Both the position numbers and the translations under genes were made by a program. Below the pieces are notes generated by a model, which ran no database searches, had not been told where the DNA came from, and worked only from the letters and a program-made list of their open reading frames with translations. Below, piece after piece: positions 14,784-36,934 of a DNA stretch of 36,934 nt (position 1 is the stretch's first letter; every line of letters begins with the position of its first letter). Origin of the DNA: a virus; the IMG/VR virus record IMGVR_UViG_3300028607_001511, positions 1-36,934 of that record; one strand, written 5' to 3'.

Positions 14784-15386
14784 TTATTTAGTCACTGCTG
14801 TGAAAGATGGTTCTTGTTGTGTCACCTCAATTCCATCAGGAATTTCTCCAGTTGCTTTCATGTATTCCTTGACACCTGCCTTTGACACTGTGATCTTTTT
14901 GGTCAGCAGTTTCATTGACCATTCAGATGTCAATGTTGATGTGCCAACCCAGTTGATCACAATCTTTGGATCAGTGATTTCAACCTTTTCCTGCCTGACC
15001 CTCATCTTGAGTGATCCATTTGGCAGATTCATGGTCTTTTGTTCTTGACCCATCATGAACAAGTGCAACCCCCGTGACAGGAATGCAATTGTCTTGTCCC
15101 GTTTTGCAACTTCCCTGTCCATGAAATCAGTTGCATCTTTGATCTGTGCGTTTCCAACTGTCACAACATTCTCTATTTCATCCCTCAACTTTTTAATCAC
15201 ATAGAGATATTTGTTGGCTGTTTTCTGTCCCTCTACCACTTCATCAGTGGTGATGGGATCATCCAGATCAAGACTGCCAATGACCTCATAAAGAAATGCA
15301 TCCTCTGGATCATTGTCATGGTTCATGTTCAGGTTGACCAAGTTGTCTGCAGTTTGGTCAAGGTCTTTTTCTGACATTGTGCTCAT
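14784..15386 (-). CDS. Gam/Gp157-like host-nuclease inhibitor family protein
   Basis: A 200-residue protein from ATG 15386 (MSTMSEKDLDQTADN), which follows GGAGACTGAA; the open frame extends upstream but without a start context. It is an acidic N-terminus, then a long helical region (KLRDEIENVVTVGNAQIKD), then 'NLPNGSLKMRVRQEKVEI' and a C-terminal 'YMKATGEIPDGIEVTQ'. This order is that of Mu Gam-like DNA-end-binding proteins and of siphovirus Gp157. Either would protect linear phage DNA from host exonuclease. Its neighbours are a Rad52-like annealing protein and a zinc protein. Confidence 0.6.
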   Translation of the reverse strand: MSTMSEKDLDQTADNLVNLNMNHDNDPEDAFLYEVIGSLDLDDPITTDEVVEGQKTANKYLYVIKKLRDEIENVVTVGNAQIKDATDFMDREVAKRDKTIAFLSRGLHLFMMGQEQKTMNLPNGSLKMRVRQEKVEITDPKIVINWVGTSTLTSEWSMKLLTKKITVSKAGVKEYMKATGEIPDGIEVTQQEPSFTAVTK

Positions 15387-15387
15387 T

Positions 15388-15831
15388 TCAGTCTCCTTTG
15401 AACAAAGAAGTCTGGCTTGTGCCAAACCTCTTTGCTTTGATTTCTGTGTTTTTGGATTTAGGGTCAAACCAACCTGCACCATCACAGTTCTGGCACACAT
15501 TGCCAAACTGGTCTGCTCCCTTGCCTTTGCAGTCCTTGCACTTGACATTGTCCTGCCAAGTCATTCTCTGCATTCTGGCAATTTTAGCAGGGGAGTCAGC
15601 ATTGACCTCATGAGATGCCCTGAACTGCAGACCATCCACTACAATGCCCTCCCCTGCTTTGATGATTTTCTTCCACCTGTTGAAATTCCTGTATTCAGGA
15701 CAGACATCAGTCTTTGCCCATGAGCCATCATCCATCTTGAATGTGATCCTGATGAACCTTGACCCATAGTTCTTGAGTCCTGCTCCTTTTGCAGGTTTCA
15801 GATTGTGGATTTGTTGAATCATGCCTCTCAT
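15388..15831 (-). CDS. DnaJ-type zinc-binding protein
   Basis: A 147-residue protein. Residues 98-120 contain CxxCxGxG-x7-CxxCxGxG (C98, C101, C113, C116), the DnaJ-like zinc motif. The N-terminal ~75 residues are beta-rich (RFIRITFKMDDGSWAK). ATG 15831 overlaps the Rad52-like stop (ATGA). There is no J domain. It is probably a nucleic-acid or protein partner of the annealing protein; that role is inference. Confidence 0.6.
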   Translation of the reverse strand: MRGMIQQIHNLKPAKGAGLKNYGSRFIRITFKMDDGSWAKTDVCPEYRNFNRWKKIIKAGEGIVVDGLQFRASHEVNADSPAKIARMQRMTWQDNVKCKDCKGKGADQFGNVCQNCDGAGWFDPKSKNTEIKAKRFGTSQTSLFKGD

Positions 15832-16766
15832 GCTTGAATGATGGTCATTGCCAGACCCTGAACCTGCTCAAGTGTGAGTTTATCATGGACAAAACTCCAT
15901 GACTTTTCATGCATCCTTGTCAGGATTTCCTTTGAGGCACGTTCCTGTCTCTCTTTTGCAATCTTGATTTCAGAACCATCTTCTCTCTTGGTGCTCATTT
16001 TAGAGATTGTCCAGATCAAGAGATCAGCACCAATGTCTTTCCAAGCAGTGTGCTTGTTGTCGTTGGTGTATCCAATCTCCTGCCTTCTGCCATTCAGTTT
16101 CCAGTCCTGAAAACCGTTGCTGACCTGATCTCCAATTGCAAATTCTGGATCAGTGGAATACTGCAGATCATCAACAGTGTCATTCATGTCTGCCTCATCC
16201 TCATTGTTGTTGAGCACTTCATGGTATTCACCATGTTGCATCTCATGCCTGATCCCTTTCAGATCAGCCTCTGTTTTCACAGCATCTGCAAGAGCCTCTT
16301 TTTTCTTTTGTTTCGCTGATGGTGGTGTCCAATTCCAAGGTGCTTTCCATGATCCATCTGCTTTCTTTTCACAATCCACCCAGTGGATGTCCAGATCATA
16401 AAGATCAGCACAGATGCCCCAAGTGAAACATGCTCTCTTGAATGCATCTGAAACCTCTCCCTTGTCCTTCTCAAAATCAGAAGGCACACCACAGTCTTGC
16501 TTGGTCACTTTCGTGCCATCAGGAAATGTGATTGTGAGTGAACAGAACAGCACACCTTGTGTGTCCCTGTTGTAAGTAACCTCCCACCCATGAATGCCAA
16601 CTGCCTCGTCCAAGATTTTCCTTGGCAGTCTTGCATCAGTATATGCAACCATTGTGGCTTTGCCAGTTGCCTGATTGATGGATTGACATTTCCAATGGAT
16701 TTCATTTTCTGGGGTGAGTTGTTGGAGAGTGCCTTGAATGACATCCCAACTTTTTTCTTCAGTCAT
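15828..16766 (-). CDS. Rad52/Rad22-family single-strand annealing protein
   Basis: A 312-residue protein from ATG 16766 (MTEEKSWDVIQGTL), which follows GGAGACAAAC; the longer open frame to 16838 lacks a site. Residues ~10-130 match the Rad52/22 core: 'YTDARLPRKILDEAVGIHGW' then 'DTQGVLFCSLTITFPDG', 'DCGVPSDFEKDKGEVSDAFK' and 'RACFTWGICADLYDL'. This family anneals complementary single strands. The C-terminal 180 residues are acidic and then basic and may bind partners. It heads the recombination operon, directly after a strong terminator and an ATATGATA site. Confidence 0.75.
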   Translation of the reverse strand: MTEEKSWDVIQGTLQQLTPENEIHWKCQSINQATGKATMVAYTDARLPRKILDEAVGIHGWEVTYNRDTQGVLFCSLTITFPDGTKVTKQDCGVPSDFEKDKGEVSDAFKRACFTWGICADLYDLDIHWVDCEKKADGSWKAPWNWTPPSAKQKKKEALADAVKTEADLKGIRHEMQHGEYHEVLNNNEDEADMNDTVDDLQYSTDPEFAIGDQVSNGFQDWKLNGRRQEIGYTNDNKHTAWKDIGADLLIWTISKMSTKREDGSEIKIAKERQERASKEILTRMHEKSWSFVHDKLTLEQVQGLAMTIIQA

Positions 16767-16832
16767 GTTTGTCTCCTTTGTTTGTGTGTGTATTGATCCC
16801 ACCTGAATGCTCATCATCCAGAGTGGAATTAA

Positions 16833-16840
16833 TATCATAT
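16833..16840 (-). promoter_or_regulatory. ATATGATA site before the Rad52-like operon
   Basis: The minus strand reads TTGTAAATTATATGATATT, 67 bases before the Rad52-like ATG and just after the intrinsic terminator at 16875-16907. TATGAT resembles a -10 box. The same octamer recurs in five other intergenic places. Confidence 0.45.
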
Positions 16841-16968: not shown

Positions 16969-17874
16969 TCAGACTCCTGCGTCTTCCAGTGCCTCAAGCA
17001 CAAGGCTGTAGTTGTCAGCAATCCTTCTCAAGTTTAACTTGTCATTGCTTTCCACTTCCAACCGTTCCTCATATTTGACAAGGTCAATTTCTGCCTCTAT
17101 TGCATCAGTCACAATTTCAGTCAGGTCTGATGGTTCAAGTGCATCAATCTCCCAACACTCTGTCCCAAAGGTTTCATTGTATCCACCTGCTCTGGAGTCT
17201 GTGGCTTTGGCAAAGTTGGGTGGTGGTGAATGTAGTTCAACCTGATCCATTGTCAAAGCAATGTGTTTGACCTCCAGAGTGAACTGATCCTGATTGAACT
17301 CACTGACCCTGTCATCACAGTCCCTGATCATGTCCAATCCACTGGGGTCATGGTCTCCCATGTAAAGGATCACATTGTGGCTGTGTGGCTTGAACCTGTT
17401 GAAGGCATCAAACATGGCAGTGATGGATGAATATCCTCTATTGACCATCAGCCTGACATGGTATCTGGAGCAGACCCTGCCAACGATTGCTGACAGTGCC
17501 TCTTTCTCAAGCCAGACCTCAACATTGATCTCCTGATCCTCCTGCCTGTTGACCCTGTATTGTCTGGCTGTGTCATCAAGTGCATCCCACACACTGTCTG
17601 CCCAGTAGGGGAGGCGAGGTCTGCGTAGTCTGTCCTCAATTGAGTCCCAGTCTATGAGTCCACCCATCCTGCCCTTGCCACAAAGATTCATCACCTTTTT
17701 ATATTCAGCTTTCGTGTTTGGGATGATGTCCCTTGCAACCATTTGATAGTATAACTGGCGAAGGGTCAAACGGAGTCCCTGTGCCCTGTAGGAATCAAGA
17801 ATCTCGTTGATGGTTGTCAACTTGATGAGATTCTTTTTGCTGATCCCTGCCTTTGCTCTGAAAGACTGTTTCAT
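16969..17874 (-). CDS. TOPRIM-domain protein, Spo11/TopoVI-A-like
   Basis: A 301-residue protein. The N-terminal third (LTLRQLYYQMVARDIIPNTK, then 'VMNLCGKGRMGGLIDWDSIE') looks like the winged-helix part of TopoVI-A-type proteins. The TOPRIM core follows: 'VEVWLEKEAL' with E123, 'MVNRGYSS', and 'VILYMGDHDPSG' with D174 and D176. There is no TopoVI-B partner, so it is more likely a nuclease or nicking enzyme than a topoisomerase. ATG 17874 overlaps the HAD gene stop (ATGA) after GGAGACAG. The family call is based on the E...DxD metal motif and flanking pattern. Confidence 0.65.
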   Translation of the reverse strand: MKQSFRAKAGISKKNLIKLTTINEILDSYRAQGLRLTLRQLYYQMVARDIIPNTKAEYKKVMNLCGKGRMGGLIDWDSIEDRLRRPRLPYWADSVWDALDDTARQYRVNRQEDQEINVEVWLEKEALSAIVGRVCSRYHVRLMVNRGYSSITAMFDAFNRFKPHSHNVILYMGDHDPSGLDMIRDCDDRVSEFNQDQFTLEVKHIALTMDQVELHSPPPNFAKATDSRAGGYNETFGTECWEIDALEPSDLTEIVTDAIEAEIDLVKYEERLEVESNDKLNLRRIADNYSLVLEALEDAGV

Positions 17875-19105: not shown

Positions 19106-19741
19106 TCAATTTTTGTCACATATATTCAACCTGAAGACTTTCAATATATTGCACACCAAAAACCCTGTGACCCACAATGGAATCATGACAATCACCCAAG
19201 CAAGTTTCATGAGACAAAGCAAGGAGAACCATATCCAGAAAAAGGTCATGATGGTTGTTGCAAATCCAGTTGAGGTGTAATGCATCCACCATCCACACAC
19301 CATGAGTTTGAATTCATGATCTCGACCATACCTTGCAAACAGCAAATCAAATCTGTGGTTGCCATCAATGAGTCTGTATTTTTTATCTGATTTGATGTAT
19401 CCAGACTTGAACATATCTGGAGCATAGCCATGTTCTAAAAGAGACTCCACAACTGTGTGATATTTGTTGGCTTTGCCAAGACCTCTGTTTTTATATTTTT
19501 TGAAATTCAGTTTATTCCACCACTGTGGATGCAGTGGGTTTTTTCTCGGAGGCAGGATTGATTCAACATACTGGATTGCATCATCAATGTCTTGTGTGTG
19601 CCATAGCCTCACAAGATGTTCAATGTTTTTCTTATGATATGTGTCCACCTTCATTTTGTTTTTTGAAAATGTCAGGACTCTTTGGACTTTGATGTCAGAA
19701 AGTTTTACAACAACGACCTCATTTTTTTTTGAATTATTCAT
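19106..19741 (-). CDS. ParB-like domain protein with C-terminal membrane anchor
   Basis: A 211-residue protein. Residues ~10-150 are soluble, with 'YRLIDGNHRFDLLFARYG' (DGNHR at 126-130), the GxxR/DGNHR signature of ParB/sulfiredoxin-type domains. Residues ~159-203 are strongly hydrophobic with two likely membrane helices (IMTFFWIWFSLLCLM and WVIVMIPLWVTGFLVC). There is no Shine-Dalgarno site; the ATG follows an AT-rich TATTATATAGCAT, so the message may be leaderless. It flanks the putative origin, so a role in placing or segregating DNA at the membrane is attractive but unproven. Confidence 0.5.
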   Translation of the reverse strand: MNNSKKNEVVVVKLSDIKVQRVLTFSKNKMKVDTYHKKNIEHLVRLWHTQDIDDAIQYVESILPPRKNPLHPQWWNKLNFKKYKNRGLGKANKYHTVVESLLEHGYAPDMFKSGYIKSDKKYRLIDGNHRFDLLFARYGRDHEFKLMVCGWWMHYTSTGFATTIMTFFWIWFSLLCLMKLAWVIVMIPLWVTGFLVCNILKVFRLNICDKN

Positions 19742-22018: not shown

Positions 22019-22269
22019 TTGGAATTCCAAGTGGTTTCAAAAAATGTGGTTATAGAATAACAACAGCAGAAATCACAGATGTTCAGGGGTGGACTCTTGC
22101 CAAGGGACAATGTTTTTTTGTCCTTGAAATGAGCATTGAAAGACCCTCTGGATTTCCTGTGAACATTGCTGTTGACAATGGCTTTGAAGATGATGCCATG
22201 TTTCCAATCACTGCAATTGATGAAAGCTATTTTCTTAATCAAACAAAGGAGGAAAAGGAAAATGAATAA
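22015..22269 (+). CDS. Unknown protein, rightward operon gene 2
   Basis: An 84-residue protein from ATG 22015 (MIGIPSGFKKCGYRITTAEI). The ATG overlaps the previous stop (ATGA). Beta-rich, with an acidic tail ending in KEEKENE. No family recognised. Confidence 0.55.
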   Translation: MIGIPSGFKKCGYRITTAEITDVQGWTLAKGQCFFVLEMSIERPSGFPVNIAVDNGFEDDAMFPITAIDESYFLNQTKEEKENE

Positions 22270-22483
22270 ACCCATGACACACATCATTGAACTGTTCCTG
22301 AACAACAGCATAATGATGAACGTCTTTGGATTGGTGAACCTTGAATCAGTCAGGTCACAATTGAGACTTGAGGGATGCAAGAGAATTCCCAACACAAAGA
22401 GATTGAAAAGGATCATCAGAGAAATCTTTGATGATAAAATCACAAACAGTGTCTCATTCAGGGACACACAACAAGGAGACTGA
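22262..22483 (+). CDS. Small basic helical protein, rightward operon gene 3
   Basis: A 73-residue protein (MNKPMTHIIELFLNNSIMMN), after a near-ideal AAAGGAGGAAAAGGAA site; it overlaps the previous gene by 8 bases. Predicted to be mostly helical, with a basic middle (CKRIPNTKRLKRIIREI). No family recognised; size and charge would suit a DNA- or protein-binding regulator. Confidence 0.5.
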   Translation: MNKPMTHIIELFLNNSIMMNVFGLVNLESVRSQLRLEGCKRIPNTKRLKRIIREIFDDKITNSVSFRDTQQGD

Positions 22484-22487
22484 AAAC

Positions 22488-23093
22488 ATGACTGATCAAA
22501 TCAAACAGTTTGTGAGGGAAACCATTGGCACATCCATTGGAGTCCTGCATACAGACGAACATGCACAACTGAATCTGAACCTCTCTCTCTGTCCCCTATC
22601 AGATGAGTGGATTGCAAAGATCAAATCTGGCAACCTGATCATTGTTGAAAGGAGAACAATGGGAGGTGAGACCTATGAGACCAACTGTGGAATCACACAG
22701 GTTGGAGGATCAGGTCTCTACAACATGATCCCTATGCCAACCCACAGGACAATGCTTTGTGCAAGTGAGCAAAGTGTGATGAGAACTGGAGGAGACCATG
22801 ATGGAGTTTTGGTCTGTTTCAGATACCTCTCAAAGGAGGGCATTGAATACATCATGAATGATCCCATGATCAAGGCAAAGAAAAACAGTCTTGACCTTGA
22901 TCTTGAATGGGTTGATCAACTGCCAGTGTTTCCAAAATGTCTGGCAATGACTGAATGCAATGGTGATCTCCCAAAGGATGCTGTGGAGCAGATGATGATC
23001 AACAGAGGTCTTGATCCAAATGTCAAACGATACCCACCAACTGACTTGTTTGCAAATCCAACAGGTTCAGAACACTGGATCATGCCAAACTAA
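22488..23093 (+). CDS. Unknown protein, rightward operon gene 4
   Basis: A 201-residue protein from ATG 22488 (MTDQIKQFVRETIGTSIGVL), after AAGGAGACTGAAAAC. It is acidic, with mixed strands and helices (LIIVERRTMGGETYETNCG). No catalytic motif seen. It is the last gene before a strong terminator. Confidence 0.6.
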   Translation: MTDQIKQFVRETIGTSIGVLHTDEHAQLNLNLSLCPLSDEWIAKIKSGNLIIVERRTMGGETYETNCGITQVGGSGLYNMIPMPTHRTMLCASEQSVMRTGGDHDGVLVCFRYLSKEGIEYIMNDPMIKAKKNSLDLDLEWVDQLPVFPKCLAMTECNGDLPKDAVEQMMINRGLDPNVKRYPPTDLFANPTGSEHWIMPN

Positions 23094-23280
23094 ATCACAC
23101 TCACACCTGTGATGAATACCAGAAAGGGACACAGCAATGTGTCCCTTTTTTTTGTCACCATGACCATGAGGTAAGGATGGAGGTTGAGAACTGGGACAGA
23201 GCATGGTGACTGGAATGCCCTCTACAGGCTTAAATTTGCGTCATATAGCCACTTTTATTCCACAGTGGTGTCCTTTGTCA
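23094..23280. other. Convergent intergenic region
   Basis: 187 bp between the ends of the rightward operon and the leftward late transcript. It contains the terminator at 23123-23153 and otherwise nothing that I can assign. Confidence 0.5.
23123..23153 (+). terminator. Intrinsic terminator of the rightward operon
   Basis: AAAGGGACACA - GCAA - TGTGTCCCTTT is an 11-bp perfect stem with a GCAA tetraloop and an eight-T run. It lies 30 bases after the stop at 23093. On the minus strand the stem is followed only by TTTCT, so it is weaker for the late transcript. The same GGGACACA stem occurs in the terminator at 20261-20290. Confidence 0.9.
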
Positions 23281-23430
23281 TCATTTCTTTTTTGCAATCT
23301 TCTTGATGGCTTTCCAGACAATATCCAGAAGGATGTCATCTGCTTTCATGGGTGTCAATTTCACCAACTTCTCTGCGATGAAAAAACCCAACAAGCACCA
23401 ATACCAATTCCCTGTGATCCACGCTTCCAT
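23281..23430 (-). CDS. Small membrane protein of the lysis region (49 aa)
   Basis: A short gene. ATG 23430 follows AAAGGAGAATGAA and TGA ends at 23281. The product starts MEAWITGNWYWCLLGFFIAE, with one likely membrane helix (residues ~8-20), and ends in a basic amphipathic segment (VWKAIKKIAKKK). Small single-helix proteins with basic tails in a lysis cassette may be holins or holin partners; this is inference. It is the last gene of the late transcript. Confidence 0.6.
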   Translation of the reverse strand: MEAWITGNWYWCLLGFFIAEKLVKLTPMKADDILLDIVWKAIKKIAKKK

Positions 23431-23445
23431 TTCATTCTCCTTTTG

Positions 23446-23721
23446 TTACTTCATTAAAGCAATCACAATGAGCAGGACTGCAAACAATGCAGAAATGAAC
23501 ATCCCTGCTCCTCTGTTTATGTTGCCAATTTTTTCAGATGCTCTGATTCTGCCGTTCTGAATGTTCAGCAAGTTGTCAATGCTGTCCAGTCTCTGCATGG
23601 TTTGAGTGTGATGCAGTTCAATTTTCTCATTGATGCCGTTCAACCTCTCTGTGTTTTGGACAAGAGTCTTGTTGACCCAGTCTCGAAATTCTCTTGTGTC
23701 CTTGATCCTGAAATCAGCCAC
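23446..23721 (-). CDS. Tail-anchored coiled-coil membrane protein (holin or spanin candidate)
   Basis: About 91 residues if it starts at GTG 23721 (MADFRIKDTREFRDWVNKTL); a TTG at 23757 would add 12 residues read through the previous gene. The body is a coiled coil (LDSIDNLLNIQNGRIRASEK) and the C-terminus is one hydrophobic helix (MFISALFAVLLIVIALMK). This layout fits several phage holin-like proteins with a C-terminal anchor. It overlaps the end of the previous gene and is followed by another small membrane protein. Confidence 0.55.
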   Translation of the reverse strand: MADFRIKDTREFRDWVNKTLVQNTERLNGINEKIELHHTQTMQRLDSIDNLLNIQNGRIRASEKIGNINRGAGMFISALFAVLLIVIALMK

Positions 23722-23911
23722 TTTTCTTTTTGCTCTTTTTCTTTGGAGGCACAACAAAATTCTTTGCCTTCAGTGCCTCTGTTTTTGTTGCATAGGTCTG
23801 TATCACATCACCGTCCCTGACAAGACCCCACCCCTTGTCTCCCTTTTTGACTGTGATTGCTTTCTTGCTGTCTTTGATCAAGGTCAATTTTCCTTTTGTG
23901 ATGAGTGTCAT
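23714..23911 (-). CDS. Small DUF2188-like protein with Lys tail
   Basis: A 65-residue protein (MTLITKGKLTLIKDSKKAIT). 'KKGDKGWGLVRDGDVIQTY' followed by 'ATKTEALKAK' resembles the short beta-hairpin-plus-helix domain of DUF2188 proteins (gW.v...g......T..EA...A). It ends in a Lys-rich tail (PPKKKSKKKSG). ATG 23911 overlaps the previous stop (ATGA). Function unknown. Confidence 0.5.
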   Translation of the reverse strand: MTLITKGKLTLIKDSKKAITVKKGDKGWGLVRDGDVIQTYATKTEALKAKNFVVPPKKKSKKKSG

Positions 23912-24318
23912 TCTACAAGTCCTTTGTGCATTTCTTCTTTTGTTGGTTCTCCACCCTTTTCATAAAGCCCACCACTCTTGTCCTTTTCATCGGGGAGTCT
24001 GGTCATGTCTGCCATAGGGAGAGACTTTTCAATTCTCAATGAGTCCAGTTCATGGTTTGGAATGGTCATCTTTGTTCCTCTGTCATAAAAGATCAGCGTT
24101 GTTTTCATCATGCCAATCTTGGTGATCCTTGCCACTCTGTTGAAAATATACACAACATCCAGTTCATTGTAATCCTTATTAAGATAAAACCTGACACCTG
24201 CAAGTCCATTGATCAGTGCCTCCTTGAAGAAAAGACCTGCAATGATGACAAGTCCAATCCAGAGCCAGTGACCAAACAGTTGCTCAATCTCTGGAGCAAT
24301 CTGTGGTATATCAGACAT
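23908..24318 (-). CDS. MscS-like beta-domain membrane protein
   Basis: A 136-residue protein. One membrane helix (~16-31, HWLWIGLVIIAGLFF) is followed by 'FKEALINGLAGVRF', then 'KDYNELDVVYIFNRVARIT', 'IGMMKTTLIFYDRG' and 'MTIPNHELDSLRI'. This reproduces the pattern of MscS mechanosensitive channels from the pore helix through the Sm-like beta domain (GD.v....v.G.V..I....T.i...dg....iPN..l). The other MscS helices and the C-terminal alpha/beta domain are absent. It lies just after the endolysin gene. A holin-like or ion-conducting role is possible. No good Shine-Dalgarno site is seen. Confidence 0.55.
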   Translation of the reverse strand: MSDIPQIAPEIEQLFGHWLWIGLVIIAGLFFKEALINGLAGVRFYLNKDYNELDVVYIFNRVARITKIGMMKTTLIFYDRGTKMTIPNHELDSLRIEKSLPMADMTRLPDEKDKSGGLYEKGGEPTKEEMHKGLVE

Positions 24319-24360
24319 GATCTACACTGCACAAGCACAACTCAACAATCCTCACTCATC

Positions 24361-24873
24361 TCATGACTCCAATTTTGAAACTGCCCTCCTGAACCAACCA
24401 AACCAGAATCTCATTTGTTGTGGTTTCTTCTGGACAATTTTGCTGTAGTGCAAAACATTGAATGCAACAAGCCTGTCAATTTCCAGACTCTGACATGCCT
24501 TTGCTGTCATCCTCCCTATTCTGCCATCCATAGTGATGAGACTGTCTTTCTGTTTTCTGTTTTTGTTGTTGGTTGCCTCCTGCAGTATCTTGACACCTCT
24601 CCTGCCTTTGTTCACTACCATGTCAAATGTGATTCCCTGCAGGTGTTCAGGCAACATTGAAATCTTGTATTTCCTCCAGTAGAATTCCCAGTAAATTTTG
24701 ATTGCATCTGCTTTTGTCAGATCAAGAATGTTGGTGTCAGGAAAGGCTCTCTTTGAGATTCCAAACTTGGTCTCTCCACCCAAATCATTTGGGTCTTTGC
24801 TATAGCCACCCTCATGCTCCAAGACTTTCTCAACTTCTTTCATGAAAATTTTGCTATATGCCAGATCAGTCAT
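24361..24873 (-). CDS. Endolysin, GH108 N-acetylmuramidase
   Basis: A 170-residue peptidoglycan hydrolase. The catalytic region is LEHEGGYSKDPNDLGGETKF then GIS (E21 in the EGGY motif), the GH108 signature. 'YWEFYWRKYKISMLPEHLQG' and a C-terminal peptidoglycan-binding-like part (SLITMDGRIGRMTAKACQ) with 'FWFGWFRRA' follow. There is no signal peptide, so it needs a holin to reach the wall. ATG 24873 shares its A with the previous stop (TGATG). Confidence 0.85.
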   Translation of the reverse strand: MTDLAYSKIFMKEVEKVLEHEGGYSKDPNDLGGETKFGISKRAFPDTNILDLTKADAIKIYWEFYWRKYKISMLPEHLQGITFDMVVNKGRRGVKILQEATNNKNRKQKDSLITMDGRIGRMTAKACQSLEIDRLVAFNVLHYSKIVQKKPQQMRFWFGWFRRAVSKLES

Positions 24874-25319
24874 CAGCCTCTCTCGCTTGTGAATCTCTCG
24901 TCATCTACACCAACCCACATCTGTCTTGTCTTTGCTCCCTTCATGATTCCAATGTGCCAGTTCTGGTCATTGAACAATGAGAACTTTGACAGATCATATA
25001 TTTGCATGTGTTTGTCAAATGTCTTTGGGGTCTTTTTACCATCTCTGAAAAACAGTGAGCATCTTTTTCCATCAGCCATTGCCACTCTCGTTCTGTTTGG
25101 CTTGTTGTAGTTTCTCTCATGGACTTCAACATAGATGTCCAGATCAGAATCTGCTGTGGGTATTCCCCAACAATAACTTCCAACAACCCACAGGTCAATC
25201 ACCTCTGCTGTTTCATAGGTTGTCTCTGTGTTGATTAAAGAAATGAGTTCTATAATAAGATCAGACCTTTGCTGTTCAGTCCAGTCCTCAACTGTCTTGG
25301 TCATCTGGCTCACCGTCAT
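24873..25319 (-). CDS. Pol-beta-type nucleotidyltransferase
   Basis: A 148-residue protein from ATG 25319 (MTVSQMTKTVEDWTEQQ), which overlaps the fibre stop (ATGA). 'IDLWVVGSYCWGIPTADSDL' then 'DIYVEV' gives GSxxxG...SDxD (G47, S48, D59, D61), the nucleotidyltransferase core. A third carboxylate is not obvious. Similar minimal enzymes are seen in toxin-antitoxin (MNT) and tRNA/antibiotic-modifying families. Its place between tail fibre and endolysin genes in the late transcript is unusual; it may modify a host or virion component. Confidence 0.65.
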   Translation of the reverse strand: MTVSQMTKTVEDWTEQQRSDLIIELISLINTETTYETAEVIDLWVVGSYCWGIPTADSDLDIYVEVHERNYNKPNRTRVAMADGKRCSLFFRDGKKTPKTFDKHMQIYDLSKFSLFNDQNWHIGIMKGAKTRQMWVGVDDERFTSERG

Positions 25320-25855
25320 GAGACATCCCAACCTATGATGAGACCATCTTTGATGACTATAGTGTGCCTCTCACCATCATCATCAATAAAAGAAGCTGTG
25401 TCAGTAGTTCCTGAATGTCCTGTGGATGCTTTGAAGGTGTCACCACACTGCACATCTTGACCTGACAGTGTCATTGCAAGGTTTCCACCTGTTGAAAATC
25501 CAATTGAATTTGACGATTTTCTATACATCCCAGTGTCAGTGTCTCCTGTAAATGCATGTGCAGGTTTTGAGACATCTCCGTATCCTGTAATGACTGCACC
25601 AGAAAATGTGGCAGTGCCTCCAGTAAGTCCCAAAGCCTCCTTATCTGATCCACCAATTTTGGTGCTGAATTGTAGTTTTCCATCTTCAGTGCCATTTGAT
25701 ACATCAGCAGTCAGCCCTTTGATCCAACCATATTGAGTATTTTCATTTGCTGAATTATCTGCATAAAAAGAAATCTGTCCTATTTGGTCACCATCGGTGG
25801 CAGTTGCTCTGTTACGTTTGAACTGAATTATAGAAGGACTTGAATTGTCATATGA
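25316..25855 (-). pseudogene. Orphaned C-terminal part of the tail fibre
   Basis: An open frame of ~177 residues without a start codon; the in-frame stop TAA at 25858-25856 lies in the inverted repeat. It reads DNSSPSIIQFKRNRATATDG, then 'QIGQISFYADNSANENTQYG' and ends 'HTIVIKDGLIIGWDVS'. This is typical fibre tip sequence and has no other source. It is probably the continuation of the fibre at 25940-27649, cut off by the inverted segment 25852-26068. It could be a switched-off cassette, a decayed gene or an assembly error. Confidence 0.65.
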
Positions 25856-25892
25856 TTACTATGAGAACAAATTCTGACTCATCATCTGCTGA
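25852..25892 (+). repeat. Inverted repeat, left copy (41 bp)
   Basis: An exact reverse complement of 26028-26068. It begins ATGATTACTATGAGA and ends CATCTGCTGA. A further four bases (GTCA) match after one mismatch at the outer edge. Confidence 0.95.
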
Positions 25893-26027
25893 TGCTCTTA
25901 TTCTTGATACATCCCAAAACGCCACATTTACTGGGGCAGTCACAGTAAATGGTTCAAATGTGACTGTAGCCAATGCATCAAATCCATACATATATTTGAA
26001 TGATACAAGTGGAGGGGCAGGAATTTT
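25893..26027 (+). other. Misoriented tail fibre segment between inverted repeats
   Basis: 135 bp whose plus strand encodes fibre-like protein (ALILDTSQNATFTGAVTV, then 'ASNPYIYLNDTSGGAGIF'), although the fibre gene is on the minus strand. The phrase ALILDTSQNATFTG closely resembles ALTLDQNQNATFVG inside the same fibre. Inverting the segment between the 41-bp repeats would put it in frame after QMITMRTNSDSSSA. Confidence 0.8.
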
Positions 26028-27649
26028 TCAGCAGATGATGAGTCAGAATTTGTTCTCATAGTAATCATTTGACCACCAATTAAAGTCAAACCTGCAGAGA
26101 GAGATTTCACCACATTTCCAGACAGATTAAGATATTGAGTCCCACCGCCATATATTTTCAAACTATCATTATTTTTTCCAAGAACAACATCACCAACAAA
26201 TGTGGCGTTTTGATTTTGGTCTAATGTCAGTGCTGTTGTAGTCCCTCCAGTTTGCAGATTAAGTATCCCATCTCTATGATGATATATTCTGGATTTAGTT
26301 GTGCCAGAAGTCTGAAAAATTAACTCACCATATTCACCATTTGAATTCAGAGCATCCAGATATATGCGAGAAGAACCACCACCTGTTGAATCTAATGTAA
26401 GGGCAACATTTGCGTTTTTCTCTATTAAGACATCACTCTGGAATGAGGTCAATCCTGTTGCATCAATGTGAAATGCATCTGAACCATCTTTCAATTTGAA
26501 ATATCCAATTCTTGTGGACAGGTTTCTATATCCCATCTGCAGAGGACTGATGATGGTGTTGTCTTGTGCTTGGTTGTAATAACCACCCACCAATATATAT
26601 GCATCATGGTTTGCATCCATTGCTCCCTGCGTTTCAGTAAATGATGCAACTTCACCTTGACCATTCTTTTCCACCATGAAAGTCCCATCTTTCAGATGAA
26701 ATGTTCTTTGTGGGTCTGTTTTATGAACCCCTATATTGCCATTGATTCCTATAAAAAATCTATTTGTCAATGATGAATCTTCTGTTGTTTTTGCTGTATT
26801 AAAGAAAAATCCTGCAGTTGCATCTTCGCCAGTAGAATCTGAAGTAAATAGAACAAAGTCTAAAGCACCCCATGATGTGTTTGGTTTTGTTAGTGTCGGA
26901 GCACTTGCAGACTCTGCAGTAATTACTCCATTTTGTGTGATATGTAGAACTCTACCATTGGAGGAAAACTGCCTAAATTGAACTTTCGTTGAACCATCCA
27001 ATGTGAGGCTTGGATTTGCTTGACCATTGTTTACTGAACTGTCTTGATTTACAATGACTAAATTTGGTTGAATAGTGGTTTCACCACCACCATCAATGGT
27101 CAATCTTGTTGTGTCATTTGTTTTGATTCTAAATGCTCGGGCATCCATCACAGACAATTCTGCATCTGCTCCACTACCTGCTTGTATCCTAAATCTGTTT
27201 GCAGTCCCACCATCAGCACCCATATTTATTTGTGAACCTTTCACAAGAAAAGCCCCACCTGAAGTGAGACTCCCTGATGTTTCTGTTGAACCATCTGAAC
27301 CAATGGTCAACCTTGTATTGGTGCTCCCATTAGTAAAAAATGTTAAGTCTGATTCATCTTGATTCCCTATTGCAGTGTTGCCACCTGCTCCCTCTTTTTC
27401 AATAGTAAAATAAGCATATCCTTCACCTGATGTGCCAAAATCACCACCATCTGGATCAAGCCAAATTGTTGACTTTCGACTTCCTGCAGTAGCATGTCCT
27501 ACTGCATAAAACCCACCTCCTGCTCTTTGAGATGATGTGCCTTGAGCAGTCCTGAAAATAGAATTCATTGCTGTATTGGTTGCAACTGTTAACACCCCTA
27601 CAGATGCATCCTGATCCTGCAGTAGAACCTTTTTCCATTTCACTGCCAT
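25940..27649 (-). CDS. Tail fibre protein, C-terminus disrupted by an inverted segment
   Basis: A 569-residue product as it stands. The N-terminus MAVKWKKVLLQDQDASVG resembles that of the fibre at 28128-29399 (MAVTWKKVL), so both probably attach to the same tail site. The body is beta-rich fibre sequence with repeated 'LTIDGGGETT/LTLDGS/LTLDSTGG/LTLDQNQNATF' units. At about residue 541 the coding sense is lost: after QMITMRTNSDSSSA come EKFLPLHLYHSN and other antisense-like residues to a stop. The remaining tip lies at 25316-25855. AAGGATGATCTGAA precedes the ATG. Confidence 0.8.
   Translation of the reverse strand: MAVKWKKVLLQDQDASVGVLTVATNTAMNSIFRTAQGTSSQRAGGGFYAVGHATAGSRKSTIWLDPDGGDFGTSGEGYAYFTIEKEGAGGNTAIGNQDESDLTFFTNGSTNTRLTIGSDGSTETSGSLTSGGAFLVKGSQINMGADGGTANRFRIQAGSGADAELSVMDARAFRIKTNDTTRLTIDGGGETTIQPNLVIVNQDSSVNNGQANPSLTLDGSTKVQFRQFSSNGRVLHITQNGVITAESASAPTLTKPNTSWGALDFVLFTSDSTGEDATAGFFFNTAKTTEDSSLTNRFFIGINGNIGVHKTDPQRTFHLKDGTFMVEKNGQGEVASFTETQGAMDANHDAYILVGGYYNQAQDNTIISPLQMGYRNLSTRIGYFKLKDGSDAFHIDATGLTSFQSDVLIEKNANVALTLDSTGGGSSRIYLDALNSNGEYGELIFQTSGTTKSRIYHHRDGILNLQTGGTTTALTLDQNQNATFVGDVVLGKNNDSLKIYGGGTQYLNLSGNVVKSLSAGLTLIGGQMITMRTNSDSSSAEKFLPLHLYHSNICMDLMHWLQSHLNHLL
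26028..26068 (-). repeat. Inverted repeat, right copy (41 bp)
   Basis: An exact reverse complement of 25852-25892. On the minus strand it encodes MITMRTNSDSSSA in the fibre frame. Read the other way it has an open frame SADDESEFVLIVI. Confidence 0.95.
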
Positions 27650-27655
27650 TTCAGA

Positions 27656-27877
27656 TCATCCTTGTATTTTCTGGATCATGGTTGCTGTCTTGTTTCCAAG
27701 TGCATTGATCACAGGTGCATCTGACCCCTTGATTGTGCATTGCTGAATCAGACCCATGATCAAAGACAACTCATCCAGATTGTAGTTGCTTTCATCTGGT
27801 TCATTGTTGTCTGAAATCATTTCATCAATGCTGAATTTTACATCTGTCTTTTCTTTTGATTGGTTTCCCTCGTTCAT
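27656..27877 (-). CDS. Small acidic protein of the fibre cluster
   Basis: A 73-residue protein (MNEGNQSKEKTDVKFSIDEM) with an acidic N-terminus and helical C-terminus (LSLIMGLIQQCTIKG). The ATG overlaps the previous stop (ATGA) and GGAGG lies upstream. Together with 27874-28125 it resembles a pair of helical fibre-assembly chaperones or adaptors; that role is inference. Confidence 0.55.
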   Translation of the reverse strand: MNEGNQSKEKTDVKFSIDEMISDNNEPDESNYNLDELSLIMGLIQQCTIKGSDAPVINALGNKTATMIQKIQG

Positions 27878-28125
27878 TTTAGAACCTCCATCTGTTTTAG
27901 TTTCTCAAAAATTGCTCTCAACTTGTGCAATGTGCTTGTCATTGCATCCAATTCTTTGAAAGGATATTGACCCACAGGAAGTTTAACCTGTTGCATCAAC
28001 TGCAAAAGATTTTCTATGTCATTGACAGTGAGAGAAAGTTTTTGATCATTTTCCTGTTTTATCTTTTCGGTTAATGCATTCTTGATCTTTTTTTTCTCAT
28101 CACCACCCTTGGTGATTAGTGCCAT
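27874..28125 (-). CDS. Small coiled-coil protein of the fibre cluster
   Basis: An 83-residue helical protein (MALITKGGDEKKKIKNALTE). It has heptad-like leucines (IENLLQLMQQ) and a basic N-terminus. The N-terminal LITKG also begins the small protein at 23714-23911. Coupled to the following gene. Function unknown. Confidence 0.55.
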   Translation of the reverse strand: MALITKGGDEKKKIKNALTEKIKQENDQKLSLTVNDIENLLQLMQQVKLPVGQYPFKELDAMTSTLHKLRAIFEKLKQMEVLK

Positions 28126-28127
28126 CC

Positions 28128-29399
28128 CTATTCAACCCTCACATATACATAGTCTGTGTCTGCCACACACCAAAATGATCCAATCCCAGTCCCTGCATTG
28201 GATGATGTGGGTGCAGTGTTTGCGTGTTCCTGAACAGTTGCAAGAAATCCCATTGTGTTTACAAGTGTTCCTCCACTGATGCCTTTTGCAACTATGCATC
28301 TTTGTGTGTTAGCCTCGAAACCAAGCACCCTCTCCCTTGAGGATGTGTTCATATTGAATGTGATTCCCTGATCTGTGGTGTCATTTGTGACGTTGTGTGC
28401 AAGATCAATTGAGTCATCTTCAACCAGAATTTGTGAAACATTCTGCGTGACTGTATCACCTGAAACCGTCAGGTTTCCAGTGACAGTAAGGTTTCCAGAG
28501 CAAGTCCCACCACTCAAAAGACTTGTGTTGTTGTCTGTTGAACTGATGGTGATTGTCCTGTTGTCAGTTCCTCCTTGAGTCACACTTGTTGCACCTGACC
28601 CAGTGAATGTCACAGCCTCACCCTGACTGATTGTTGTTGTTGCTCCACCCACAAGAGTCCATGTTGTCAACTGATTTGTGTTGACAAAGTTGGGTGAACT
28701 GATAGTGATTGCAGTTCCTGACCTTGTGATAGATGTGGCTTGTGCTCCAATGAAATCCAAATCTGTCCCATGTGCAACATCTGCAGTTGACCCACCACCA
28801 ACCTTGACCTGAAAGATTGTTCTCTCAAAGTCATTGCTGTCAGTGGAGTTAATTTTGAGACTGTTTCCTGTCCTTTCTGTTGTGACATTTGACCCACCAA
28901 CAAAGGAGACTGTTTCACCCTGCCCAATTGTTGTTGTGCTTCCTGCGTCACTGTCAAGTTTCCATGTTGTCAGTTGGTTTGTGTTGTTGTCTGTTGAACT
29001 GATGGTGAATGCAGTGCCTGATCTTGAGACAGATGTTGCACCTGATCCAATGAAATCCACATCAGTCCCATGAGAGACATCTGCTGTTCCTCCACCGTTT
29101 GCCTTGACCTGAAAGATTGTCAATGCGTTGGTGTTAGTGAAAGAAGATGAAAGAGTGACAGTTCCTGCAGATTCAACAACAGACATATTTGAGGACGCAC
29201 TGATGGTCAGTGTGTTGCCAGAGCCAATTGTTGATGTGTTTGATCCGTCAGATATTGTCCAACTGCTGAAATTGTCTTTTGCCACCCAAGCAAAACCTGT
29301 CCCACTTTGGGTCAGAACATCTCCACTACTCCCTCCTGTCTTTATATCATCATTGACAACAGTGCCTTTTGTTAGGACTTTTTTCCATGTAACAGCCAT
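28128..29399 (-). CDS. Tail fibre protein with two ~98-residue repeats
   Basis: A 423-residue beta-rich protein (MAVTWKKVLTKGTVVNDD). Residues ~93-192 and ~194-292 are tandem repeats: TIFQVKANGGGTADVSHGTD in the first and TIFQVKVGGGSTADVAHGTD in the second, each followed by xDFIG...ATS..RSGTA and NTNQLTTW. The C-terminal domain (LTVTGNLTVSGDTVTQNVSQ to FWCVADTDYVYVRVE) is the classic phage fibre 'ltV.Gnltv.G.tt....' region with a tip motif. AAGGAGAAAATAAA precedes the ATG. Confidence 0.8.
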   Translation of the reverse strand: MAVTWKKVLTKGTVVNDDIKTGGSSGDVLTQSGTGFAWVAKDNFSSWTISDGSNTSTIGSGNTLTISASSNMSVVESAGTVTLSSSFTNTNALTIFQVKANGGGTADVSHGTDVDFIGSGATSVSRSGTAFTISSTDNNTNQLTTWKLDSDAGSTTTIGQGETVSFVGGSNVTTERTGNSLKINSTDSNDFERTIFQVKVGGGSTADVAHGTDLDFIGAQATSITRSGTAITISSPNFVNTNQLTTWTLVGGATTTISQGEAVTFTGSGATSVTQGGTDNRTITISSTDNNTSLLSGGTCSGNLTVTGNLTVSGDTVTQNVSQILVEDDSIDLAHNVTNDTTDQGITFNMNTSSRERVLGFEANTQRCIVAKGISGGTLVNTMGFLATVQEHANTAPTSSNAGTGIGSFWCVADTDYVYVRVE

Positions 29400-29415
29400 T
29401 TTATTTTCTCCTTGT

Positions 29416-29754
29416 TTAAGTTTTTATTTTTTGATCAGGCTCTTTCATCAACTCTTTGATCTCAAGTTGAAGTTCATCAAACTCTTTTTTTAGTTCTCTG
29501 TATTGATCTTTGATGTCTTGTGGCATCTTGTCAACAACAGCCCCATATCTGTCCTCATATTTCCACATCCTCTCCTGCAAGGAATTACACCTGTCTTTCT
29601 TCAGTTTGATTTCCAGTCTCCTGTCAACCTGATCCACCTTGACCAAGAGATCATGAATGTCCTCAATCTTTGCGTATCTTGAGTCAACAGTGAATGCAGT
29701 GCCAAGCAAGGTGCACAGTCCAACAGTTGATGCAATGAGTGCTCCCGTTTTCAT
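29416..29754 (-). CDS. N-terminally anchored coiled-coil protein
   Basis: A 112-residue protein. One N-terminal hydrophobic helix (GALIASTVGLCTLLGTAF) is followed by a long charged coiled coil (VDQVDRRLEIKLKKDR to FDELQLEIKELMKE). There is no lipobox, because the residue before the Cys is Leu. This topology resembles Rz-type spanins or fibre-cluster accessory proteins. ATG 29754 overlaps the previous fibre stop (ATGA). Confidence 0.55.
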   Translation of the reverse strand: MKTGALIASTVGLCTLLGTAFTVDSRYAKIEDIHDLLVKVDQVDRRLEIKLKKDRCNSLQERMWKYEDRYGAVVDKMPQDIKDQYRELKKEFDELQLEIKELMKEPDQKIKT

Positions 29755-30491
29755 GATGCAGATTTAGAAAAATATAGAGTCTCATCAGTGGTGTTGAAAT
29801 ATAAACCACCTGCAACCTGTGTGGGAGCAGATGAATGACCCATGATTTGTATTGATTCCATTTCCACCCTGCCAGTGGCTGTGTGAATTTTCATTGCCAT
29901 GCTGTTTGAACTCTCAATGACCAATGCTCCAGAATCAACATCCTCATCCACAGAGATTGACCATCTTTCCTGCAATAGTTCTCCCACCTGACTTTTGAAC
30001 ACCAAAGACTTTTGTGAATCCTCAACACCCATGATCACAAGTTCTCCCGTTGAGTCTGTTGTCCCAACTTTGAAACCTGATCCAATCGGCTGATCCATCA
30101 TCAGCAATGTCACCCCACTGAACTGCCACTCTGATCCTGACCATTTGATGGTGTCTGATGCGTCAGGAGTGCCGTCTTCTACGTCTGCAAGATCAGCAAG
30201 GTTTGATGTGCCTGTGGGATCAGCAAAGACCCAGTTCTCTTGTGTTGAATCATATTTGAGAATCTTGTTGTTGCCAAGACCAGATGCATCTATTGAATAT
30301 CCAAGAATGCGTGTCCCATCAAACAACTCATCACTTGACCTGCCTCCCACAAGGTCTGCATTATCAACCTGCAGATTCTGGTCTTGATCATAATCCTCTG
30401 CAAACATTGGTGAACCAAGAATCACTGCATCCTGTGTTGGCTGTATTCTGCCAACATTTGGTTGTCCTGATATGAGAAAAGCGTTGCTCAT
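29751..30491 (-). CDS. Tail fibre/appendage protein
   Basis: A 246-residue acidic, beta-rich protein (MSNAFLISGQPNVGRIQPTQ). It includes 'DNADLVGGRSSDELFDGT', 'NLADLADVEDGTPDASDT' and an end 'QVAGGLYFNTTDETLYFSKS', the 'GglyfNTttntlyy' motif common near the end of phage fibre proteins. AATAGGAGATAAA precedes the ATG. Confidence 0.7.
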   Translation of the reverse strand: MSNAFLISGQPNVGRIQPTQDAVILGSPMFAEDYDQDQNLQVDNADLVGGRSSDELFDGTRILGYSIDASGLGNNKILKYDSTQENWVFADPTGTSNLADLADVEDGTPDASDTIKWSGSEWQFSGVTLLMMDQPIGSGFKVGTTDSTGELVIMGVEDSQKSLVFKSQVGELLQERWSISVDEDVDSGALVIESSNSMAMKIHTATGRVEMESIQIMGHSSAPTQVAGGLYFNTTDETLYFSKSAS

Positions 30492-30511: not shown

Positions 30512-32452
30512 TCAATCTGTTGGGTTGCCAACATATTCTGTTGTCTGTCCTGCCACAACTGTGATCTGTCTCTTGCCTATCAAGCACCATTCCAGAACCT
30601 TGAAATCTTTTGTCCCTGATGAACTGTTGTTGTCAAACATGAATTGAATGTTGACAGTGTAGAGATCATAATTTGCATGGGATGTCAGGTCAAAATAGAT
30701 TGCACCCAACTCTCCAAGGTTTCCTGTGGCATTGATTGAATCAGATGCCTCTGATTGATTGGACACATTATATCCACCAATTGTGATCTGTGTCTTTCCT
30801 GTGAATCCATTTGTTGCACTTGACACTCTTGATCTTGTGTAGAGGACAAGTTGTCTGTAGTCAGGTATCTTGTAAAAGTTGATTTTTCTGATTGTGTAAA
30901 ATGTCCCACTTGCATAAGACCCACCATCAGTCAGAGTTGCCTCAACAATTGTTGGGTCTGCCTCATAAATAGGTGTCCCAAAGCCTGATGAACTCTGATT
31001 GTGTGCATCCCAGTCATTTGTGGCAAGGATAGTGTAGAGTCCCTCTGTGCCACTGAACTGGGTGAGATAGCCAAGCCTCTGATCCAATATGTCCATGTTT
31101 TGGAGTAGAGTTTTATCTGATGATATATAGTTTTCTGATGTGAATGACTGGTCAATGCTGATTGTTTTTTGCAGTTTTCCATTGGATGCATTGGATGAGT
31201 CCACAACATTCATTCCATTAAATTTCAGATCAAGCCATTTGAACTCATCACCACTTGCATAAGATGGCAATGATGCAATGATACCACCAAGTCCATCTGT
31301 TCCTGCCTGTTCTGCAAATCCTGCAGTGCCTGATGCAGGGACTTTGAAATGATCTGGATCAATGGTGTCATCTGTGGGTGTCAGTCCCACACTTGCATTC
31401 AGTTTGTCAGATGTGATTGCACCATCTGCAATTTTGGTTTCATCTATTATGTCATTCGCAAGGTGTGCTCTGTCAATTGAGCCGTCCACATAGTGGTCTG
31501 AATCAACTGCATTGGTGGCAAGTTTGTCACCTGTGACAGCCAGATCAGCAAGATGGTCTGTGTTAACCTCATCATAAGATGGCACTCCTGCAGTGCTGAA
31601 AACTACTGCTCCATAGCCTGTATGATGTTTGATCTGTGGTGCACCTACTGCATTGTCTGCCATCTTTGACTCTGTCACACAATCCTCATCAAGTTTTGCT
31701 GTTGACACTGCGTTTCCTTCAATATGATCTGTATTGATTTTCCCGAATTGTGGGACACCTGATGAGCCAAATGAGATCACACCATATCCAGTGTGATGAG
31801 AAATTTGGGTTGGAGTTATTGCATTGTAAGCAATCTTTGCTTCAAGCACACTCAAGTTTGCAATCTCTGTTGCTGTCACACTTCCATCAATGATCTCTGT
31901 TGTGCCAACTGAATTGATTGCCATCTTTGCGTTTGTCACTGCTAAATCATCTATTTTACCAGTGGTGACTGCAGAGTTTCCAAGTTTTGCGTTTATCACA
32001 CCCAAATCTTTGAGGTGCAGAGTGGTGGCAAATTCAAGGGAAGTGCCATCAACCTCTCCCTCTTTCATGAGGGTGGAATCTTTACCCTCAAATGTTGCAT
32101 TGGTGTAGTCATATATCTTGTCTGCTGACCACAACTTTGTTGTTGCTCCATTTCCTGCACCGTCATCAATAGGTCTGTGCAGTGTGGCATCAACCATGTG
32201 TGTCTTGATCTCATCTGTTGCCACAAATTGGTTTGTCATTTCCTCATGCAACGAACCTCCAACAAAGACATCAACATTTGATGTGTCGAGCACATCTGTG
32301 AAATATGTCCCATCTCCATTGTCAATGATTGATCCACTTGTAGTGGAGGCAAGAACGGTGGCTGTCCCCGTTGATTTGATTTCTACAATAAGGTTTGGTT
32401 GCAGGTCTCCAGACCCTTGACCGAATACTCCAAAACTAAATCTGGTTGCCAT
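30512..32452 (-). CDS. Large tail fibre/receptor-binding protein
   Basis: A 646-residue protein (MATRFSFGVFGQGSGDLQPN). Residues ~150-345 are a row of short degenerate repeats of the form 'dlAVTnaKlA.naV....i.dgsI' (DLAVTNAKMAINSVGTTEII). Within them a larger unit, HHTGYGxxxFxSxGVPxxxxxNTDH, occurs twice. The C-terminal ~300 residues form a non-repetitive domain, probably the receptor-binding or tip module. AATAGGAGAATATC precedes the ATG. This repeat style is typical of long side or central fibres. Confidence 0.8.
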   Translation of the reverse strand: MATRFSFGVFGQGSGDLQPNLIVEIKSTGTATVLASTTSGSIIDNGDGTYFTDVLDTSNVDVFVGGSLHEEMTNQFVATDEIKTHMVDATLHRPIDDGAGNGATTKLWSADKIYDYTNATFEGKDSTLMKEGEVDGTSLEFATTLHLKDLGVINAKLGNSAVTTGKIDDLAVTNAKMAINSVGTTEIIDGSVTATEIANLSVLEAKIAYNAITPTQISHHTGYGVISFGSSGVPQFGKINTDHIEGNAVSTAKLDEDCVTESKMADNAVGAPQIKHHTGYGAVVFSTAGVPSYDEVNTDHLADLAVTGDKLATNAVDSDHYVDGSIDRAHLANDIIDETKIADGAITSDKLNASVGLTPTDDTIDPDHFKVPASGTAGFAEQAGTDGLGGIIASLPSYASGDEFKWLDLKFNGMNVVDSSNASNGKLQKTISIDQSFTSENYISSDKTLLQNMDILDQRLGYLTQFSGTEGLYTILATNDWDAHNQSSSGFGTPIYEADPTIVEATLTDGGSYASGTFYTIRKINFYKIPDYRQLVLYTRSRVSSATNGFTGKTQITIGGYNVSNQSEASDSINATGNLGELGAIYFDLTSHANYDLYTVNIQFMFDNNSSSGTKDFKVLEWCLIGKRQITVVAGQTTEYVGNPTD

Positions 32453-34972: not shown

Positions 34973-36934
34973 CAGTTCAATCTCCCTCTTTCAATGTCTG
35001 CATTGATGATTGTTGATCCATCAGTGATTGTCACTCCCTGTGGCATATTCATGACCTTGGTCAACATTCCTATTTTGTCACTCATTTGTTCAATTGCATT
35101 TGTGTTGATCTCTGTCAGTTCTTCTTGTCTGGTCATGTTCACAGAGTTATTAATATAGTTTTGATTTGTAAAATTGGACAATGGCACACCCAACTGCTGT
35201 GCTTGAAATGGAATGATCTGGCTCTTGACATAGTCTTTGAAACCCTGTTCTGGGATCACCAACTCTGCTCCTGCCTCACCCATCAGTGCCAGTGTTGGTT
35301 TCTGAATCAATCCACCTTTTTCAAATGCCATGACTTTTGATTTTGCTCCCTCAAGAATTGCCACAGCCCCTGCATACATAGGCAACTGAAAAGCCAAGGA
35401 TAGTCCCAGAGTTGTTGCACCTGTTGCCATGATCTCTGCCAGTTTACCGAGCAACCAAATCTGTTTCTCTGTGATGAATGTGACCAATTTCTGCTTTGCA
35501 TATGATTTGTAAGTCAGTGCACCACTTTGCATGAATCCAATTGATGCCTGATGGAGTTGTCCCTGCAGTTCAATTCTCCTTTCAACTGTCAGAGAGTCAT
35601 CCTGCAATTGCTTTGATAAGAGTGCCATGTGTTCAACATCTGACATTCTGCCTGTTTCCAGTTGATGTTCAATCCATTCATCATATTTGTTCCTTCTATG
35701 TTGCATCAGTTCAAACCATCTCTCACTGTAGAGTTCTTCTGCTTGAATCTTGGCATCAAGAAATTCAATGTAAACATCAAAATTCCTTTGCTCCTCACCA
35801 ATCAAAACAAAACCCATCTCCTCTGCCATTGCAATTCTGTCTTGTTGTGCTTCTTCTTCATGTTCTGCTTTTTCAGCATCTATCTTTGCTTTTTCTTCTG
35901 CGTAGAAATTATTTATTGTCAACAATTCATTTGTCAGTGCTTCTTCTTCTGCTACAATAACAGCTAACTGTTCTCTCCTCCCTTTCTCCAAAGCCTTTGC
36001 CGATGCAGATTGATCTTGTTCAAGTGCCAGTCTCAACTCATGTGCATGTGTTGTTGCAAATGATTGTAGTTCAAGGATTGTTGCTCTTTCATGAAGTCTC
36101 TCCTGCTCCAATCTAATTTTTTTCTTGCCCCATTTGTCTGCATCCACCAACTGCGATCTGACTGTCATTGCAATTGTTTGAGTAAGAACTTTCTGTCGTG
36201 CTATTATCTCCTGTTTTGACATTTTCTCCATTGCCTTCAGTCTCTCCGCTGACCATTCTGTTGCCTCTTTTTCTGTGTCAATATAGACCTCAAGTTTGTC
36301 AATTTGGTCTTGGATCAATTCTGCTGATGCAACTGCTCCTGCAAGTCTTTCTGCAGTTTTCTGCCTCTCCAACTTTAATCCTACCTCATCCCTGTTCAAT
36401 AGGTGTTTAAGACTCATCATTTTATCTATGGCAAGGTTGTGGTCTGATTGTGCCTCTGCTAAATCTCCCTTTATTCTTTTTATTTGATTTTCTCGTTTGA
36501 GTCCGTGAATACTTGTCTCATAAGCCAACTCCCTCTCATATTTTGCTATCAAACCCTTTGCAATTTCTTTGTCATTTTCAAAGATAGCCCCTGTCAGAGA
36601 ATATGCTTTCTGTTTTACATGTAATGTTGTCAAAAGTTGTTCCCCAAGCACCTTTTCTTGATCCACAAGAGCACCTGTGAATACTGTCAAGCCCCAAGTT
36701 AATTTGAGAGCATTGGGATCAGCCATGACTTCTCTGTTTTTCAAAACCTCCTTGATGACACTGCGTTCAACCACAGCTCTGTGTCTGAGGCTTTCAATAA
36801 GTTCTGCTTGTGCCTCTCTTTCAAGGTGCAGTTCAGCAATGCTTGACATCCTTGAAAGTCTCTCTGCTTCTGTCTTGAGCCTATCACGCATTGCCTTGTT
36901 TCTTTCTATAGCATCTGTATTGTCCTCAAGTGCC
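34972..36934 (-). CDS. Tail tape measure protein, C-terminal part (joins 1-1469)
   Basis: The continuation of the tape measure gene that starts at 1469. Bases 36791-36934 repeat bases 1-144, so residues are shared there. This part is long coiled coil (residues ~455-800; many Glu/Ala/Lys/Gln). A hydrophobic segment follows (KLAEIMATGATTLGLSLAF, MYAGAVAIL), then the conserved tape measure motif 'ALMGEAGAELVIPEQG' near the C-terminus, and the end IINADIERGRLN. The apparent ATG at 36891 (MRDRLKTEAERL) is internal, not the true start. Confidence 0.9.
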   Translation of the reverse strand, partial: ALEDNTDAIERNKAMRDRLKTEAERLSRMSSIAELHLEREAQAELIESLRHRAVVERSVIKEVLKNREVMADPNALKLTWGLTVFTGALVDQEKVLGEQLLTTLHVKQKAYSLTGAIFENDKEIAKGLIAKYERELAYETSIHGLKRENQIKRIKGDLAEAQSDHNLAIDKMMSLKHLLNRDEVGLKLERQKTAERLAGAVASAELIQDQIDKLEVYIDTEKEATEWSAERLKAMEKMSKQEIIARQKVLTQTIAMTVRSQLVDADKWGKKKIRLEQERLHERATILELQSFATTHAHELRLALEQDQSASAKALEKGRREQLAVIVAEEEALTNELLTINNFYAEEKAKIDAEKAEHEEEAQQDRIAMAEEMGFVLIGEEQRNFDVYIEFLDAKIQAEELYSERWFELMQHRRNKYDEWIEHQLETGRMSDVEHMALLSKQLQDDSLTVERRIELQGQLHQASIGFMQSGALTYKSYAKQKLVTFITEKQIWLLGKLAEIMATGATTLGLSLAFQLPMYAGAVAILEGAKSKVMAFEKGGLIQKPTLALMGEAGAELVIPEQGFKDYVKSQIIPFQAQQLGVPLSNFTNQNYINNSVNMTRQEELTEINTNAIEQMSDKIGMLTKVMNMPQGVTITDGSTIINADIERGRLN
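36791..36934. repeat. Terminal direct repeat (second copy)
   Basis: Identical to 1-144; see the first copy. Genome unit length is therefore 36,790 bp. Confidence 0.95.

Follow-up and report, generated by a model that had tools for sequence, protein, structure and literature searches.

The minus-strand tail-fibre gene of the virus in IMG/VR record IMGVR_UViG_3300028607_001511 carries within it a 217-bp segment, made up of a perfect inverted repeat and a spacer of fibre-coding sequence that runs backwards relative to the gene, and this scar looks like a one-off copying slip, not a genetic switch. Very probably, a single local template-switch (fold-back) event made it. The arrangement, the ancestral arm, the stops, the frame shared by gene start and tip, and the point at which homology to relatives ends all emerge from the analysis of the window (the whole 36,934-bp record) and of its relatives. 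The preliminary description preferred a phase-variation switch, a reading that does not hold: only one arm is ancestral, neither orientation yields an intact fibre, the tip of the fibre is untranslatable, and no invertase was found among 30 phage ORFs scanned against Pfam.

Geometry of the inverted repeat

The arms of the repeat (25852-25892 and 26028-26068) are 41 bp each and are exact reverse complements around a spacer of 135 bp, as first described; when extended outward by 5 bp (25847-25892 and 26028-26073) they match at 45 of 46 positions. This is the sole perfect inverted repeat of at least 20 nt in the whole window. The longest arms in Markov-3 simulated windows (n = 20) were 12-16 nt, and no inverted arms longer than 26 nt lay within 1.5 kb in the 1.79 Mb of phage loci that were retrieved; the 41-bp repeat is therefore not due to chance. 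The predicted fold of the repeat is very stable (-102 kcal/mol, z -10.5).

An inverted segment in the fibre gene

The 5' part of the fibre gene (MAVKWKK...GGQ; 26069..27649, minus strand) is intact, with an open frame from the ATG at 27649 and codon scores typical for the phage's genes. The neighbouring minus-strand fibre gene, starting at 29399, begins nearly alike (MAVTWKKVL, compared with MAVKWKKVL from 27649). Next along the gene lies the proximal arm, R (26028..26068, minus strand), which encodes MITMRTNSDSSSA in the fibre frame, and it is after ...MITMRTNSDSSSA that the minus-strand fibre loses sense. The inner segment that follows, S (25893..26027), is fibre-coding on the plus strand, where its frame (ALILDTSQNATFTGAV) matches the fibre gene's own repeat (ALTLDQNQNATFVGDV) with a local score of 60, where shuffled sequences average 33 (p 0.002); over the inner 135 bp the plus frame reads ALILDTSQNATFTGAVTVNGSNVTVANASNPYIYLNDTSGGAGI and the gene's own repeat reads ALTLDQNQNATFVGDVV. 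None of the other five frames of the spacer matches that repeat, and the plus frame has a codon score of 0.27 bits per codon, compared with a median of 0.24 for the phage's other genes. Since the plus frame alone matches the gene's repeat and scores as a gene does, the spacer is really inverted relative to the fibre gene, and the preliminary description was right on both the loss of sense and the coding strand.

Beyond S lies the distal arm (25852..25892, minus strand), a backwards copy of R that carries two fibre-frame stops, TAG (25859-25861) and TAA (25856-25858). The tip part of the fibre, D (25316..25855, minus strand), comprises a domain and the C-terminus, and is in the gene's frame and free of stops to 25318. 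The tip had been described as out of frame whichever way the segment lies, which proved mistaken: in both orientations the frame opened at 27649 reaches the tip frame after the distal arm (...S, two stops, then SYDNSSPSIIQFKRNRATATDGDQIGQ...), and it is the TAG and TAA that separate the tip (25855 down to 25316) from the gene start. The fibre product is thus truncated at 569 or 596 aa depending on orientation, with the tip lying past both stops in each. The tip domain is a common fibre domain, matched over 72 aa by a profile from 68 relatives (E 2.7e-24), and the match begins at the first residue past both stops; the first in-frame start in the tip part, at 25633, comes 71 codons in. Whichever way the segment lies, translation of the conserved tip domain would require both stops to be read through.

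Flipping the segment restores no full gene, as it gives R-S-FQQ followed by the copied arm, stops included. Nor could a small indel rejoin the three parts, as had been suggested, because the SADDESEFVLIVI frame runs into a TGA immediately past the arm, where, as the relatives show, coding sequence has been lost. The tip domain is undamaged although untranslatable, which fits a recent break, whereas under a stable switch it would not have been preserved. The event is recent, because the arms are identical at 41 of 41 positions while the flanks U, ahead of R, and D are intact.

Relatives of the interrupted module

A search with the plus-strand reading of the segment returned 59 relatives. Several in IMG/VR span the R/S join (query 1-52, 2-49 and 2-56), with L235, L236 and L278 matching across the proximal arm into S; R-S is therefore the ancestral order and the distal arm the new copy. 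S shares 68-70% identity with the fibre modules of L226-L228, and the module in L226-L232 reads ...ASNPYIYINDTNAGAGIFQQEGNTTRIGSDSNTQVV..., with small changes in L232. After the segment, L226-L231 read ...ASNPYIYINDTNAGAGIFQQEGNTTRIGSDSNTQVVLVQNNATAVTIDTSKN, while L232 has a close variant of this and L244 one that is further removed, so that the natural continuation of the inner segment in relatives is GAGIFQQ-EGNTTRIG... The window's plus-strand reading tracks this module to GAGIFQQ (TTTCAGCAG; ATTTTTCAGCAG) and then becomes the reverse copy of R. As the module continues past FQQ in relatives, its end and the coding sequence from there up to the tip appear to be missing from the window. The module ASNPYIYINDTNAGAGIFQQEGNTTRIGSDSNTQVVLVQNNATAVTIDTSKN recurs, very similar, in otherwise different IMG/VR phage fibres (L226-L232, L244), a sign of module shuffling.

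Homology stops 6-7 nt (TCAGCAG) into the distal arm, which is not ancestral past about 7 nt, and the common piece, TCAGCA(G), reverse-complements CTGCTGA, the sequence at R's 3' end. In R this motif stands at 26028..26034 (TCAGCAG on the plus strand, CTGCTGA on the minus), the probable 6-7 nt microhomology of a first switch, and a second copy, CTGCTGA on the plus strand, stands at 25886-25892; relatives carry the F-Q-Q codons TTCCAGCAA or TTTCAACAA at the microhomology site. The distal arm is absent from the corresponding module in relatives, and the repeat is absent from the fetched relatives.

We found relatives of this fibre at the level of modules only. Neither its 5' part nor its tip had a close match in IMG/VR, the tip had none in GTDB genomes, and a search of the phage collection with the fibre DNA likewise gave none; the exact 41-mer of the arm was not found elsewhere in IMG/VR, and an intact allele of the same fibre was found neither there nor in GTDB genomes. 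A near-identical contig, IMGVR_UViG_3300023216_000825 (99.7-99.95%), stops at window positions 22218 and 30252 and does not include the fibre. We also considered a direct ancestral join of S to the tip and rejected it: the tip-family profile (68 sequences) starts at the tip, short of S, and the relatives of S contradict such a join, with intervening sequence missing from the window.

A probable template switch within the fibre gene

The fold-back event that we favour would have run as follows. Synthesis along the fibre gene, in the direction we infer, would complete R, whose 3' terminus is ...CTGCTGA, and the nascent end would jump 135 bp forward onto the complementary strand; there TCAGCAG, in the F-Q-Q codons, offers 6-7 nt of pairing. 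As such a jump lands further on than it departs, it would have to be to the other parental strand, as we read the four-point model (PMC7954356). Copying would then run back through S and through another 34 nt of R before a second jump, likewise presumed, returned it to the original strand at the tip part, past the FQQ module. The product, U-R-rc(S)-rc(R)-D, would have a perfect inverted repeat and an inverted spacer, and would have lost the sequence from FQQ to D.

Several findings bear this out. The segment is the reverse complement of adjacent ancestral sequence, with one arm new (relatives match R-S, and S to FQQ); there is short complementarity at the first junction, between the CTGCTGA end of R and the (T)TCAGCA of the ancestral F-Q-Q codons; and homology runs 6-7 nt into the distal arm before it ends, which is where priming of CTGCTGA on TCAGCAG would put the limit. 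Against it, two switches are required where most amplification chimeras have one, the ancestral FQQ-to-tip sequence is reconstructed from modules just 68-70% identical, and D had a one-in-three chance of staying in frame across the deletion.

The four-point template-switch model describes such patterns and often yields perfect inverted repeats (PMC7954356), and homogenisation of arms together with inversion of the spacer by template switching is documented in yeast genes (PMC8604942). The fibre scar shares with these short-range mutations a reverse-complement copy beside its source, a perfect inverted repeat, an inverted spacer and a switch point at short complementarity; it differs in that the spacer is 135 bp, compared with inverted spacers of 2-5 bp in the yeast genes, and in that sequence past the segment is deleted.

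Natural mutation or chimera of the sample

The template switch could have taken place in the phage or in the amplification or assembly of the sample. The preliminary description had offered a fold-back artefact as its second reading, which comes close to the evidence, although template switching in nature would produce an identical scar and has to be added to it. In multiple displacement amplification (MDA), inverted chimeras with deletions predominate: more than 85% of the chimeras are inverted with an intervening deletion and more than 70% have 2-21 nt of complementarity at the junction (PMC1855051), and jump distances peak at 80-280 nt (PMC5372508). The fibre scar fits this pattern well, with its inverted join, intervening deletion, 135-nt jump and 6-7 nt of complementarity, and differs in needing a return jump. 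We lean towards a chimera, giving it about two thirds of the weight and an event in the phage about one third, because a broken fibre stands as the consensus genotype, the arms are perfect and the tip is undecayed.

Genome context and recombination functions

Positions 1-144 and 36791-36934 of the 36,934-bp record are identical, and a tape-measure-like gene runs across these 144-bp ends; for both reasons the record probably represents a whole genome, closed into a circle, of about 36.79 kb. A Pfam scan of 30 ORFs detected no site-specific recombinase, so that the earlier statement that no recombinase is encoded stands for this class and fails for homologous recombination, whose functions are present. 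They include a RusA-like resolvase (12761-13327, E 1.6e-7), a Mu Gam-like protein for end protection (14784-15548) and an Erf/Rad52-like annealase (15828-16838; PHROG 1097, E 1.2e-22; Pfam Rad52_Rad22, E 6.3e-6). Within the recombination and replication set there is also a protein of the PHROG 'DNA topoisomerase' family (16969-17874, E 6.7e-84).

The near-identical contig (loci L056/L057) covers the genome except for 22219-30251, an 8-kb stretch with both tandem fibre genes, and L063, a relative further off, has an unrelated fibre; together these suggest that the stretch is a hypervariable region. The 31 differences between the two genomes are strongly clustered (35992-35996, 36153-36177, 32285-32292 and 19241-19279) and include five adjacent substitutions. 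Small template switches were rejected as their source, since no tested cluster is a reverse-complement flip; the clusters are possibly the result of micro-recombination with another strain.

Inversion switches and other alternatives

The main alternative is a functional DNA-inversion switch, in which a host or phage recombinase flips the 135 bp at the 41-bp repeats and so alternates the fibre C-terminus for host range. The location in a tail fibre, the open reading frame that flipping joins across R and S, and perfect arms close in length to the 10-40 nt given for inverton repeats (PMC11892184) all speak for it. We nonetheless consider it highly unlikely: both orientations end early, leaving the conserved tip untranslatable, the distal arm is not ancestral, and the interrupted module is without its end. 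Repeats of this kind occur in no fetched relative, and the arm has at least five mismatches to an invertase core sequence, which is chance level. A host enzyme is conceivable in place of the site-specific recombinase that the scanned ORFs lack. Known phage inversion systems such as Mu gin and P1 cin swap alternative C-termini and encode the invertase. The fibre segment resembles these systems and bacterial invertons in that inverted repeats flank part of a fibre gene, and differs in that no invertase was found in the 30 ORFs scanned, no intact alternative product is made and one arm is new.

A template-switch scar could also now be flipping by homologous recombination or annealing between the arms, through the phage annealase and resolvase. 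Both genes are present, and Erf/Rad52-like annealases can work with homology as short as 41 bp; no second allele was found, however, and the flipped form yields no intact product, so that we rate this marginally below the inversion switch. Odder still, and somewhat less probable, is the idea that the phage keeps fibre variants by template switching and annealase-driven flipping, as a recombinase-free way to truncate or swap the tip. Least probable of all is a selected RNA or DNA hairpin, such as a terminator or regulator within the fibre operon: the predicted fold is very stable, but any 41-bp inverted repeat folds so, a conserved coding module is interrupted, and the repeat is absent in relatives.

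Implications for phage fibre genes

The single fold-back event thus remains our preferred account of the segment, and it carries a caution, in that a phage fibre gene from a metagenome can mimic a host-range switch exactly when a perfect inverted repeat in it encloses coding sequence turned backwards. Even where reads are lacking, relatives of the interrupted module can separate copying scars from invertons. A natural origin of the scar would mean that template switching breaks a fibre gene in a wild phage.
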